Shown: positions 29,707 to 33,486 of the stretch, piece by piece | Layout: each line of letters begins with the position of its first letter | How positions within the stretch are numbered: the first letter of the stretch is position 1 | Source: Psychromonas sp. 14N.309.X.WAT.B.A12 | Lineage (GTDB): Bacteria > Pseudomonadota > Gammaproteobacteria > Enterobacterales > Psychromonadaceae | Assembly: GCF_030397575.1 (NCBI RefSeq) | Contig: NZ_JAPNXS010000003.1 | Coordinates: 248,001-312,000 of the forward strand | Direction: 5' to 3' | Length of the DNA stretch: 64,000 bases | Position numbers and translations under genes: made by a program | Notes under the pieces: model-generated | Databases searched by the model: none | What the model was told of the DNA's origin: nothing | Seen by the model: only the letters and a program-made list of their open reading frames with translations

Positions 29707-30675
29707 TTATGCTATTTCAACTAGTGGTGTTTCAGCAAAGTGTTTTTTAGCAAAAGCCACACGCTCTTCGACACTCATTTTCTCAGCGTCCTTGAGACTT
29801 TCAACTAATTTTAAACGCGGCAAAATACCTGTGCCATTAGCAATTTGAATTGCTAAACCAGGGCGAGCATTTAACTCTAACAGCATCGGCCCCAAATCCC
29901 TGTCTAATACCATATCAGTACCTAAATAACCCATACCTGACATTTCATAGCAACTAGCGGCTAAGTAAATTAAACGTTCCCATTTAGGAACATTAAGCAG
30001 TTTTAGCTCTTTATTTGTATCAGGGTGACGCTCAACGGGCATATCAAATTGTACGGCGTTAATCGCTTTACCAGTTCCAATATCAATACCGACGCCAACG
30101 GCTCCTTGATGAAGGTTCGCCTTACCATCGGAAGCTGCTGTTGATAAACGCATCATGGCCATCACAGGAAAGCCTTTAAAGACGATAACACGGACATCAG
30201 GCACACCTTCAAAGCTAAAACCATCAAAGGCACTATCAAATTGAATTAAGCCCTCTACAACGGCTACGTCAGCGCTACCACCAAGGCTAAATAGTCCAGC
30301 TAAGATATCTGTAACATGACGTTTAATATCAGCTAAGGTTTCTTCACTGCCATTGGGCTTGTAATAACGGCCATTTTCGATCTTAGTAATCACTAAGATA
30401 CCTTTACCGCCACTGCCTTTGGCAGGCTTGATAACAAAGCCTGGTGTGTTTTCAATGAAGCTAGCTACTTTCTCAACTTCTGCTTGCATTGATATAACAC
30501 CCAATAGCGCTGGGGTGGTGACGTTAGCTTCTCGGGCAATAATCTTAGTTTTTAATTTGTTATCAACCAAAGGGTATAGACGGCGTGGGTTATAACGACC
30601 AACGTAACCACTGTTACGCTGGTTCATACCCATAATACCTTTTTTTCTAAGTTTAAAAGGACTAGAGAAAAACAT
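29707..30675 (-). CDS. RimK-like ATP-grasp ligase (alpha-L-glutamate ligase-like)
   Basis: This 322-residue ATP-grasp protein belongs to the RimK-related 'alpha-L-glutamate ligase-like' family that travels with a 7TM inactive transglutaminase and a retropepsin-like protease. Visible motifs are the nucleotide-binding loop KPAKGSGGKG (83-92) and the metal-binding ELNARPG (267-273). By family analogy it would ligate an amino acid to a carboxylate of a peptide or metabolite; the substrate is unknown. The ATG follows AGGAG inside the end of the upstream gene. It is third in the operon and has no signal peptide, so it should act in the cytoplasm. Confidence 0.85.
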   Translation of the reverse strand: MFFSSPFKLRKKGIMGMNQRNSGYVGRYNPRRLYPLVDNKLKTKIIAREANVTTPALLGVISMQAEVEKVASFIENTPGFVIKPAKGSGGKGILVITKIENGRYYKPNGSEETLADIKRHVTDILAGLFSLGGSADVAVVEGLIQFDSAFDGFSFEGVPDVRVIVFKGFPVMAMMRLSTAASDGKANLHQGAVGVGIDIGTGKAINAVQFDMPVERHPDTNKELKLLNVPKWERLIYLAASCYEMSGMGYLGTDMVLDRDLGPMLLELNARPGLAIQIANGTGILPRLKLVESLKDAEKMSVEERVAFAKKHFAETPLVEIA

Positions 30676-30678
30676 TGT

Positions 30679-32217
30679 TTACTCCTTATCCGCCAATGGT
30701 TTAAATCGGCGTAATTCTAATAAACGGTATCCAGTATAACTACCTAAAATCAATACAAAAGACATCACAACAAACTGTAAGCCGATAAAATTAAACATCA
30801 GGTGACGCGCTACTTCATTACTCATAATAAAGTAAGCAAGTACAGCAACAACTAAGCTACCACCACCTTGAGTAAACACCTCTTTAGGACCTTCTTCTTC
30901 CCATAGCACTGACATTCGTTCAATAGTCCAAGATAAAATGATCATTGGGAAGAAGGTGACCTTTAAGCCCTCCGTTAAACCAAGTTTGTAAGACAGCACA
31001 CCAAATAAGGCAATCAAGAGAATTACCATGATAATCACGGTAGATATCCTCGAGACTAGTAATAAATTTAGGTGGGATAGGTAGGAACGAATAAATAGAC
31101 CCACTGCAACTAATAAGATAAAGCCAATTAACCCAGTTACTAAGCTGGTTTGAATAAAGGCCATTGCAATCAACACAGGCATAAAGGTGCCAGATGTTTT
31201 TAGGCCAATTAATACGCGCATAATTACTACAATCAATACACCCAATGGGATCATTAGAATCCCTTTAAATAAAGATTGATCTTCAACTGGTAAGCTATGT
31301 ATTGAGAAGTTAAATAGGTGCTCATTATCGGTTTTTTGCAGGATAGCAGCTAGGGCAGGTTGATCCTGTTGGATCATAGAAAAGCTGACTTTAGAATTAA
31401 CTCCGCCGGTCAATTCTAATAAGGCTTTACCACTTTGATCCCATAATAATAGATTAGTGCGATCTACCGCTTTAACAGTTGAAGCATCAAATAATCGAGA
31501 CTCAATTTTGCCATCTTTCTCTTGGAAAACTTGTACCAAAGGTTGTAAATGTTGACGGCGTCGACCATCTTCAAGGACTAATGCACCTATGCGTTTATTA
31601 GGTATTTTAGCTTCATTTAACAGCGCCATTAGTACATCAGTTTTAGTTGCTTTACCGGCGAGTACTAAGCTCACGTTTTGGTTTGGATCATCTGCATTTA
31701 ATTGTTTTAACAATTCACGTGTAAAGCTAAATGCATCAGCGCTTGTTTTTAAAGAGTCTTGAATGATATCTGAACTGGCTGCTAAATCTGCAGCAACGCC
31801 TGCACCACCATATTCAATGTCTACAAGCTCCGGCATTTTACTAATTGCTTGATCTTGGCTTTCATCATCAACTAGCAACTGAATATTGTAATACAGGGTT
31901 TGCGGGCCTTCAGCTTGGCGGATAGTCCATTGCGCTTGTGGGTGGTTATCTTCATATAAAAACGATAAACCATAACCAGGAGACGCCGCATTTTGGCTAA
32001 TTTGAGTAAAGCCTGCTTGTGTAAAAGGTGTCGTTAACGAAGCTAATATAGCCTTATCAGTCGCGTCAAATTCAACCTTAGCATCAATATTCCAGACCGT
32101 TCTTGTCTCGCCTGGCATCCAAGGGATATCAAAGGCCATATGGCGTTGAATAGTTTGTGTAATACCTAATACAAACAAGCCAGCCACTAAGGTGTAAAAG
32201 AAAATACGTGCGTTCAT
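30679..32217 (-). CDS. inactive transglutaminase fused to 7 TM helices
   Basis: The 512-residue membrane protein has one N-terminal helix (about 5-22), a periplasmic region to about 315 that fits the family's degenerate transglutaminase-like domain, and seven further helices (about 318-505). No convincing Cys-His-Asp triad is visible; in fact the periplasmic region has no cysteine. Its steady pairing with an ATP-grasp ligase and a retropepsin-like protease suggests a membrane receptor or transporter for a peptide-like ligand, but this is inference. It lies 11 bp after the lipoprotein gene and 3 bp before the ligase gene. Confidence 0.82.
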   Translation of the reverse strand: MNARIFFYTLVAGLFVLGITQTIQRHMAFDIPWMPGETRTVWNIDAKVEFDATDKAILASLTTPFTQAGFTQISQNAASPGYGLSFLYEDNHPQAQWTIRQAEGPQTLYYNIQLLVDDESQDQAISKMPELVDIEYGGAGVAADLAASSDIIQDSLKTSADAFSFTRELLKQLNADDPNQNVSLVLAGKATKTDVLMALLNEAKIPNKRIGALVLEDGRRRQHLQPLVQVFQEKDGKIESRLFDASTVKAVDRTNLLLWDQSGKALLELTGGVNSKVSFSMIQQDQPALAAILQKTDNEHLFNFSIHSLPVEDQSLFKGILMIPLGVLIVVIMRVLIGLKTSGTFMPVLIAMAFIQTSLVTGLIGFILLVAVGLFIRSYLSHLNLLLVSRISTVIIMVILLIALFGVLSYKLGLTEGLKVTFFPMIILSWTIERMSVLWEEEGPKEVFTQGGGSLVVAVLAYFIMSNEVARHLMFNFIGLQFVVMSFVLILGSYTGYRLLELRRFKPLADKE

Positions 32218-32228
32218 GGTGTTCCTTA

Positions 32229-33002
32229 CTATTTATCCTGAGGTTGGTATTTTGGGTGGATATAATCTTGGCTTACATCAACTAAAATAACATCTTGTAT
32301 GAAGCTACGCCCGATCAGAACTGGGAAGTCCATATGTTGGCGATCAGTTAACGTAAACTCTGATTTATGTGCCACACCACCAATACGTACATGTAATTCA
32401 ACCACTGGACGGCGATCATATTCACCAGGCTCGCTTGATTGTAATATTTTTACATAACGTACCACTGGCGCTTCAATGATTTTCTTATCACCATCTTTGT
32501 TATGAGTAATATTAAATTTTACCCAATCCTTTCCATCACGTTCGAATTCTTGTATTTCAACTGCATTAATCGAAGAGGTAGTTGCACCTGTATCGATACG
32601 TGCTTTAAAGTTCTCTTTTGCTTTAGTGACATAAATCCATTCAGCTTGACCTAATACCGTTTTATCTAAGTAATCAGGTTTTTTCGTTTCCTTTACTATT
32701 TGCTTGCTACTCTTTGCTCTTGATCTTTCCATTAAGATCTTCTGTTGAAGTTCTTCATCAAGCTTCTGCTTTTCTTGTTTAAGCTGTTCTAAATTACTTT
32801 TTGCTTCGGCTAGTTCAAGTTGTTTTTGTTCGGCATCCACTTTTGATTCTGTTAAAGCCGTTTCTAATTCAGTAATTTTAGTTTCTTGGGCTTGTAGTGT
32901 TGTCTCAATTTTTTGTGTTTCCTCATCGGTCGAAATAGAGATACATCCAACGGTCAAAAATAGGGTTGAAAGTGTAATGATGGCCGTTCTCTTTAAAAGC
33001 AT
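32229..33002 (-). CDS. retropepsin-like lipoprotein ('ATP-dependent zinc protease' family)
   Basis: The ATG at 33002 (AGAGGAA upstream) gives 257 residues starting with a lipoprotein signal whose lipobox is LTVGC (Cys20); the frame extends further upstream but without a signal. Residues about 25-100 form a Glu/Lys/Gln-rich coiled coil. The C-terminal domain (about 115-250) carries the aspartic-protease motif IDTGATTSS (Asp137) and VLIGRSFI, typical of the retropepsin-like family long annotated as 'ATP-dependent zinc protease'. It heads the operon with the 7TM protein and the ATP-grasp ligase, and is probably periplasmic, anchored in a membrane. Confidence 0.85.
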   Translation of the reverse strand: MLLKRTAIITLSTLFLTVGCISISTDEETQKIETTLQAQETKITELETALTESKVDAEQKQLELAEAKSNLEQLKQEKQKLDEELQQKILMERSRAKSSKQIVKETKKPDYLDKTVLGQAEWIYVTKAKENFKARIDTGATTSSINAVEIQEFERDGKDWVKFNITHNKDGDKKIIEAPVVRYVKILQSSEPGEYDRRPVVELHVRIGGVAHKSEFTLTDRQHMDFPVLIGRSFIQDVILVDVSQDYIHPKYQPQDK

Positions 33003-33486
33003 GAAGATTCCTCTAGTACTGGTGAAAAATAAAAATATGGTATCAGTTTGACACATAAATATCAGTTATAAATTGTCATCAAATTACCAGTATTTCCGTT
33101 TATTAACCTTTATTTAGGCTTTTTAACGCTCGTTCATCTCACAGCGCTAAATACCGCTTCAATCATCTCAATATAATATGAATTTATAGCTTATAGATTT
33201 ATAAAAAGGCCCCAAGTTGTCTACTGCAAAGACAATTAATGGCTTTTTTTATAGTGCCTTATTAATAAATTGAGCGGGCATGTCTAATACGTTACTTATA
33301 GTGATAAAGTTTAAATTGATTGCTATAGGTAAAATGTTATTAATGCATGCCTTGTTGTAATAGGCATTGGAGTCAGCTTGTATAAAAAAGTTCCTTTCGG
33401 ATATGATGACTTAAATTTGTGTTATTGGTTCAGAACAAATTAAGTCGCCATTAACCAGCTCAGCTAGAGTAAGGTGGATTACATTT
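33003..33486. other. non-coding region between lnt and the retropepsin operon
   Basis: This stretch lies downstream of lnt and upstream of the lipoprotein gene, both on the minus strand. It must hold the promoter of the three-gene operon and the terminator of lnt. A two-part hairpin lies at 33203-33250, and a smaller repeat, ATGCCT/AGGCAT, near 33345-33366. No gene is recognised. Confidence 0.5.
33203..33250 (-). terminator. probable terminator of the miaB-lnt operon
   Basis: The outer stem AAAAAGGCC/GGCTTTTTT and inner stem TTGTCT/AGACAA are separated by an internal loop. On the minus strand it would end lnt transcripts with five T. The plus-strand T-run is longer (seven), so a plus-strand small RNA terminator is an alternative. 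Confidence 0.55.

Follow-up and report, generated by a model that had tools for sequence, protein, structure and literature searches.

What do a retropepsin-like protease, a membrane protein with a transglutaminase-like domain and a RimK-like ligase do together at the cell envelope? This question is raised by three neighbouring minus-strand genes in a 64,000-nucleotide stretch of DNA from Psychromonas sp. 14N.309.X.WAT.B.A12 (contig NZ_JAPNXS010000003.1, positions 248,001 to 312,000), which is called the window here. By their sequences, these genes are an Rlo operon, composed of the retropepsin RloA, the inactive-transglutaminase/seven-transmembrane (7TM) protein RloB and the RimK-like ligase RloC (Table 1). 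The operon was named and studied in Pseudomonas aeruginosa by Lormand et al. 2025 (PMC12239564, cited here, like the other articles, from partial text). We propose, with moderate confidence, that the lipoprotein form of Rlo is an envelope-stress operon running a make-present-trim loop, in which RloC makes a product, RloB presents or moves it and RloA trims it.

Identity of the operon

An earlier reading made from the letters alone (the sequence-only reading) had described three close genes with gaps of 11 and 3 base pairs (bp), and the coordinates of the open reading frames (ORFs) agree: 3 bp lie between RloC and RloB and 11 bp between RloB and RloA. The motifs that it had picked out, IDTGA, KPAKGSGGKG and ELNARPG, are all present in the translations. 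It had called the periplasmic domain of RloB cysteine-free; indeed, the whole RloB translation is without any cysteine. In the Pfam scan, RloA matches PF05618 (expect value, E, 8.6e-42), RloB matches PF14400 (3.5e-47) and PF14402 (1.7e-109), and RloC matches PF14397 (1.3e-94); RloC also scores 466 bits against TIGR02291, for which the cut-off is 314. The closest named relatives of RloB, among the best 80 of 554 confirmed matches, are from Psychromonas, with 90 and 84% identity.

The genes form rloA-rloB-rloC within one operon-like run, and their products have the traits that go with Rlo: an exported RloA with a DTG motif, an RloB that joins a dead transglutaminase domain to a 7TM part, and an RloC with an intact ATP-grasp site. 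The lipoprotein, the retropepsin motif, the dead transglutaminase domain and the intact ligase of the sequence-only reading are thereby all supported. Its account of what is known was right in part; the natural substrate is still open according to the text of PMC12239564, and the Rlo name and the 2025 study had been missed.

The structure model of RloC (predicted local distance difference test, pLDDT, 90) has RimK and ArgX/LysX as its nearest solved folds, and a search of its sequence against solved structures gave no match at E 0.01. For RloB, the same kind of sequence search returned one row at chance level; in the structure model (pLDDT 81), the predicted periplasmic domain matches the fold of 3isr. 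The triad columns of window RloB hold a gap, Q and D in an alignment of 59 RloB rows, and, as aligned, this domain is catalytically dead. Inactive transglutaminases described in polymorphic toxins (PMC3482391) were considered and set aside; in the text available they concern other proteins.

Table 1. Coordinates of the rlo genes and their parts in the window
Feature	Position	Strand	Description
RloC	29707-30675	minus	322 amino acids (aa); cytosolic ATP-grasp, alpha-L-glutamate ligase-like (TIGR02291, PF14397)
RloB	30679-32217	minus	512 aa; one transmembrane helix at the N-terminus, an inactive transglutaminase domain in the periplasm and a C-terminal 7TM part (PF14400, PF14402)
RloB 7TM part, residues 311-492	30742-31287	minus	invariant R334, R377, E433-R434
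RloB periplasmic domain, residues 38-288	31354-32106	minus	transglutaminase/cysteine-protease fold without catalytic triad
RloA	32229-33056	minus	ORF from first ATG, 275 aa; putative lipoprotein retropepsin
RloA, alternative start	32229-33002	minus	257 aa; improved lipoprotein signal compared with the first-ATG start
RloA retropepsin domain (PF05618)	32250-32657	minus	catalytic Asp codon 32592-32594
RloA stalk	32658-32942	minus	about 95 residues, heptad-rich
RloA signal peptide and lipobox	32943-33002	minus	lipidated Cys then Ile; no Asp at +2

Co-occurrence of the three families

The sequence-only reading had stated that these families travel together, and a neighbourhood survey bears this out. 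The class sample consisted of 276 genomes, one per species and a subset of the class, and adjacency was called with the window proteins as queries, so that a very divergent RloA might be overlooked. PF14402 was found in 59 of these genomes: 46 with a strong match (>300 bits), 6 of a live-transglutaminase type and 7 others (L084-L088, L090 and L091, at the last of which no gene was located; labels with L, G and C are our own for loci, genomes and contigs). The strong PF14402 matches and the TIGR02291 matches over the cut-off coincide in the identical 46 genomes, and rloB adjoins rloC in all of them (45 loci and the window). As the strong RloB and RloC matches pick out one and the same set of 46 among the 276 genomes and stand adjacent, the association of the genes is not chance. 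RloA lies beside the pair in 43/46, and any PF05618 gene occurs in 45 of the 46 rlo genomes versus 83 of the remaining 230. The order A-B-C is seen in 80/80 named relatives, a set that is biased because only the best 80 of the 554 confirmed matches were retained. A lack of conserved co-occurrence, or the loss of catalytic residues in ligase and protease, had been named beforehand as a ground for giving the prediction up; co-occurrence is strong, and the catalytic residues of the ligase (46/46 for RloC) and of the protease are retained.

At a third set of loci with dead triads (L084-L087, L089, L090), the RloB-like gene has RloC beside it in no case, and RloA is close by in five of the six. At L089 (5609-8790), a true RimK gene adjoins the RloB-like and RloA genes and might take the place of RloC, which is not found next to them.

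RloA as a predicted stalked lipoprotein

The RloA of the window is predicted to be an outer-membrane lipoprotein on a long stalk. We compared 81 RloA rows, the window and the 80 named relatives, of which 76 fit the motif pattern. A lipobox is found in 74 of these 76, at 104-132 residues (median 117) ahead of the catalytic Asp; with the remaining rows judged by eye, 80/81 are putative lipoproteins, and the sole exception is Tolumonas L137. An Asp at +2 after the lipidated Cys is the usual inner-membrane retention signal, and it occurs in 0 of the 74 lipobox rows; we infer an outer-membrane location for the window protein. Scored for heptads, the stalk reaches a median of 0.625 versus 0.275 in shuffles, and 72% of the 74 rows lie above the shuffles' 95th percentile, by a home-made score rather than a coiled-coil program. 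If helical, it would be about 10 nm or more in length. The catalytic Asp is retained in 81/81 rows and DTG or DSG in 78 (two of the others are degenerate and one has an unread base).

No Cys follows the catalytic motif in any of the 76 scored rows, window RloA included. A pair of disulfide cysteines is described as conserved among periplasmic RloA orthologs (PMC12239564), as a trait and not as a definition of Rlo, and window RloA does not have it. The lipoprotein type accounts for 7 of the 42 RloA neighbours in the class sample (the window apart), among them L067 with a single late Cys. The other 35 include 30 whose Cys lie at about +66 to +83 and at about +113 to +132 (four Cys in L058), three without the pair and two unscored (L063, L065). 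A gap at the catalytic-Cys column of RloB is seen only in the 8 partners of lipoprotein RloA, among the 59 RloB rows, and in a phylogeny built from 83 rows of the 7TM part the lipoprotein label requires 2 changes. Our literature search found no paper describing a lipoprotein coiled-coil form of an RloA-type protease; the putative lipoprotein form, which has a stalk (about 95 residues) and no disulfide cysteines, is new here.

The operon of P. aeruginosa, PA1768-PA1767-PA1766 (PMC7314104), shares with the window its gene content and order, an exported DTG retropepsin, a dead transglutaminase with 7TM, the ATP-grasp protein and basic substrate-contact residues. It differs in that window RloA is a predicted lipoprotein with the stalk and lacks the published disulfide cysteines, and in that window RloB has a gap at the position of the catalytic Cys. 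The catalytic residue of P. aeruginosa RloA is Asp48, so such a stalk cannot fit there.

Two other known systems resemble the operon. RimK-RimB (PMC11957791) likewise pairs a RimK-fold ligase with a PF05618 retropepsin; however, RimB is described as cytosolic and without an RloB partner in the text cited, whereas window RloA carries a lipobox and is thus not the cytosolic protease adjoining RimK that defines that system. The genome of the window has a separate locus with RimK, AstE-like and RimB genes, the AstE-like gene in the middle (L002:1-1914, contig C39). The Anbu/Alpha-E/transglutaminase/ATP-grasp operons (PMC5666114) share an ATP-grasp ligase, a transglutaminase fold and a peptidase; a scan of seven window proteins in this neighbourhood turned up no Anbu or Alpha-E gene. 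One rlo operon, in a genome from another class of the phylum (L208:3021-5543), does have Alpha-E, transglutaminase and proteasome-like (Anbu-type) genes directly beside it.

Live-transglutaminase relatives and an apparent constant core

The Cys-His-Asp triad is intact at nine loci (L078-L083 and L202-L204), six of them among the 59 aligned RloB rows, in which the other 53 are without a full triad. A pattern check of L205-L210 showed that the full triad is not kept. Two live-type RloB proteins that were Pfam-scanned match PF01841 (2.3e-16 and 4.7e-17). These loci share with the window a homologous 7TM part and RloC; they differ in the intact triad and in their company, with RloA in 0/9 of the fetched stretches and a TPR-protein gene after RloC in 9/9. 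A gene for a signal-bearing, probably beta-barrel protein then follows in 7/9; L202 is cut off by the end of its contig, and at L083 no such gene occupies this place. This protein is a probable outer-membrane beta-barrel, on a weak call, and its best named match, EpsL, is far below the cut-off.

The 7TM tree was built quickly, and some of its branches, L210 and L083 among them, are flagged as long; the nine loci make one clade on it, so the live type may be a single event. The idea that the live transglutaminase takes over from RloA runs into exceptions: three operons with dead domains (L049, L059, L074) have no adjacent RloA, and a PF05618 gene lies elsewhere in 3 of the 6 live-type genomes of the class sample. 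At L083 (5476-7992), RloB and RloC are fused in a single 838-aa ORF with an intact-looking transglutaminase triad. In another class, RloC stands beside a 373-aa 7TM-part protein without a transglutaminase match (L210:5900-7958).

Since the live-type loci have no adjacent RloA and L210 has no transglutaminase match, 7TM part and ligase look like the constant core, and the periplasmic enzyme looks like the variable part. The live-transglutaminase form was not found described in the literature that we searched by titles and abstract openings; this clade, and 7TM plus ligase as an apparent constant core, once fused, are new here. We put forward a broader idea as doubtful: RloB-RloC might be the core of a trans-envelope machine exporting an alpha-glutamyl polymer. 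In it, the ligase would sit on a 7TM carrier, processing in the periplasm would fall to a retropepsin or a live transglutaminase-like cysteine enzyme, and certain lineages would add a component at the outer membrane (a lipid-anchored stalk, or TPR protein plus beta-barrel). The window would be its stalk version.

Neighbouring genes

The operon lies between sspA-sspB on the plus strand and lnt on the minus strand, as called by profile scans, and two ORFs past lnt presumably correspond to corC and ybeY, which they resemble. A promoter scan gave 6 sites versus 13 expected by chance, with none in the gap upstream of rloA, and repeats around the operon are background-like.

Some genes near rlo genes are indicative of glutamyl chemistry, the RimK gene at L089 among them. 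In 7/46 operons, six of them within one starred clade, rloC is directly followed by a signal-bearing gene of the AstE/AspA type, and such a gene lies farther from rloC in 2 additional operons; two of the proteins were profile-scanned. A glutathione-synthetase-like ATP-grasp ligase gene and a MATCAP/QEGLA carboxypeptidase gene are just upstream of rloA at L206 (8890-11981). A PF14401 (RLAN) profile search of the window's own genome gave no match, and neither did its controls. The idea that Rlo simply substitutes for osmotic glucans (opgG) was dropped, as there is no mutual avoidance: PF04349 occurs in 14 of the 46 rlo genomes versus 33 of the 230 others (Fisher p 0.016, uncorrected for kinship), and the window genome has two.

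Proposed mechanism and alternatives

In P. aeruginosa, the loss of all three RloA proteases blocks low-salt growth, weakens biofilms, raises beta-lactam sensitivity and alters cell shape, and deletion of rloB or rloC fully restores low-salt growth and partly the other traits (PMC12239564). The make-present-trim loop fits these genetics, because a harmful build-up outside in cells without RloA would be cured by removing RloB or RloC. In this loop, RloC, with its RimK fold, would build an alpha-glutamyl oligomer or polymer in the cytosol, free or carrier-bound, and RloB would keep RloC near its own cytosolic C-terminus. The 7TM core would be the route by which RloB passes or presents the product across the inner membrane, and the dead transglutaminase domain would bind it in the periplasm. 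RloA, lipid-held in the outer membrane, would reach inward on its stalk and cut the glutamyl chain, limiting its amount or length; protease and membrane protein would thus both act on the ligase product. The genes themselves supply the identity of the three proteins, the intact ligase and protease sites, the dead transglutaminase, the lipobox and stalk and, in a relative, one RloB-RloC fusion. Glutamyl chains as the product in Psychromonas are suggested by in-vitro work in another genus and by the resemblance to RimK, and we further infer transport by RloB, the carrier and the site of action.

Several observations weigh against this proposal. Cleavage by RloA of stretches with at least 8 glutamates was obtained in vitro only, and the same study found no exported native protein with 8 or more consecutive glutamates (PMC12239564). 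In the motif NLH(R/Q)G, the Arg of RimK is replaced by Gln in RloC, which may therefore use another acceptor. The three operons without adjacent RloA, out of 46, all have the dead domain, and a PF05618 search of G244, the genome of L059 with RloB-RloC, gave no match. The narrow NCBIfam models score window RloA below cut-off (RloA3 109/210 bits, RloA2 100/250, RloA1 88/280), as does that for RloB (315/900 bits). Finally, the stalked RloA of L124, L136 and L043 has a degenerate DTG motif (DDE, DTA and DPG), and these are possible pseudo-proteases.

The glutamyl product need not be free. RloC might glutamylate an envelope protein or a lipid-linked precursor, with RloA removing the glutamates and RloB serving as a scaffold. 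RimK-RimB acting on RpsF is a precedent (PMC11957791), the modelled fold of RloC is close to RimK and LysX/ArgX, and it would suit such a target that Rlo mutants are sensitive to beta-lactams and defective in cell shape; yet no acceptor was found in this analysis or in the cited text of PMC12239564, and a cytosolic ligase must work before export. We regard this as possible, with the balance against it. It is also conceivable that RloB transports nothing and acts as a sensor or signal transducer, its dead domain binding a periplasmic ligand, its 7TM part controlling RloC and RloA setting the ligand level. Dead enzyme domains often turn into binding domains. The C-terminus of RloB sits with RloC in the fusion, and rloB loss suppresses the protease mutant as rloC loss does (PMC12239564). 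However, L210 keeps 7TM and RloC without a transglutaminase-type match, the conserved charges within the membrane part of RloB would suit a substrate path, and a periplasmic RloA would still require an RloC-dependent product outside. We think that presentation or export by RloB is more likely than sensing, which we consider unlikely.

For the lipoprotein clade, RloA and RloB could chiefly form a bridge that physically connects the outer membrane with the inner one, with catalysis secondary. Three observations favour a bridge: nearly every row has a lipid anchor and a long stalk, the three RloA proteins with degenerate motifs retain lipobox and stalk, and vesicle release rose in Shewanella vesiculosa when an RloB relative was disrupted (PMC12096838); the near-complete retention of the catalytic motif argues against it, as does the essential catalytic Asp of P. 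aeruginosa, though RloA there has no room for a stalk (PMC12239564). A mainly structural role is thus very unlikely in our estimate.

Significance

In P. aeruginosa, Rlo controls survival in low salt and sensitivity to beta-lactams, as well as cell shape and biofilms (PMC12239564). Our comparison splits the system into a constant part, 7TM and ligase, and a part that varies both in its enzyme (retropepsin or live transglutaminase) and in being soluble or anchored by a lipid. It also cautions that a short, soluble protease in the periplasm, as pictured for Pseudomonas, may not apply to relatives such as Vibrio, Aeromonas, Shewanella, Halomonas and Psychromonas. In the clade of the window, the protease should act from the outer membrane, if the prediction of its location is true. 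Together, the stalk form and the live-transglutaminase branch narrow the possible workings of the Rlo system.
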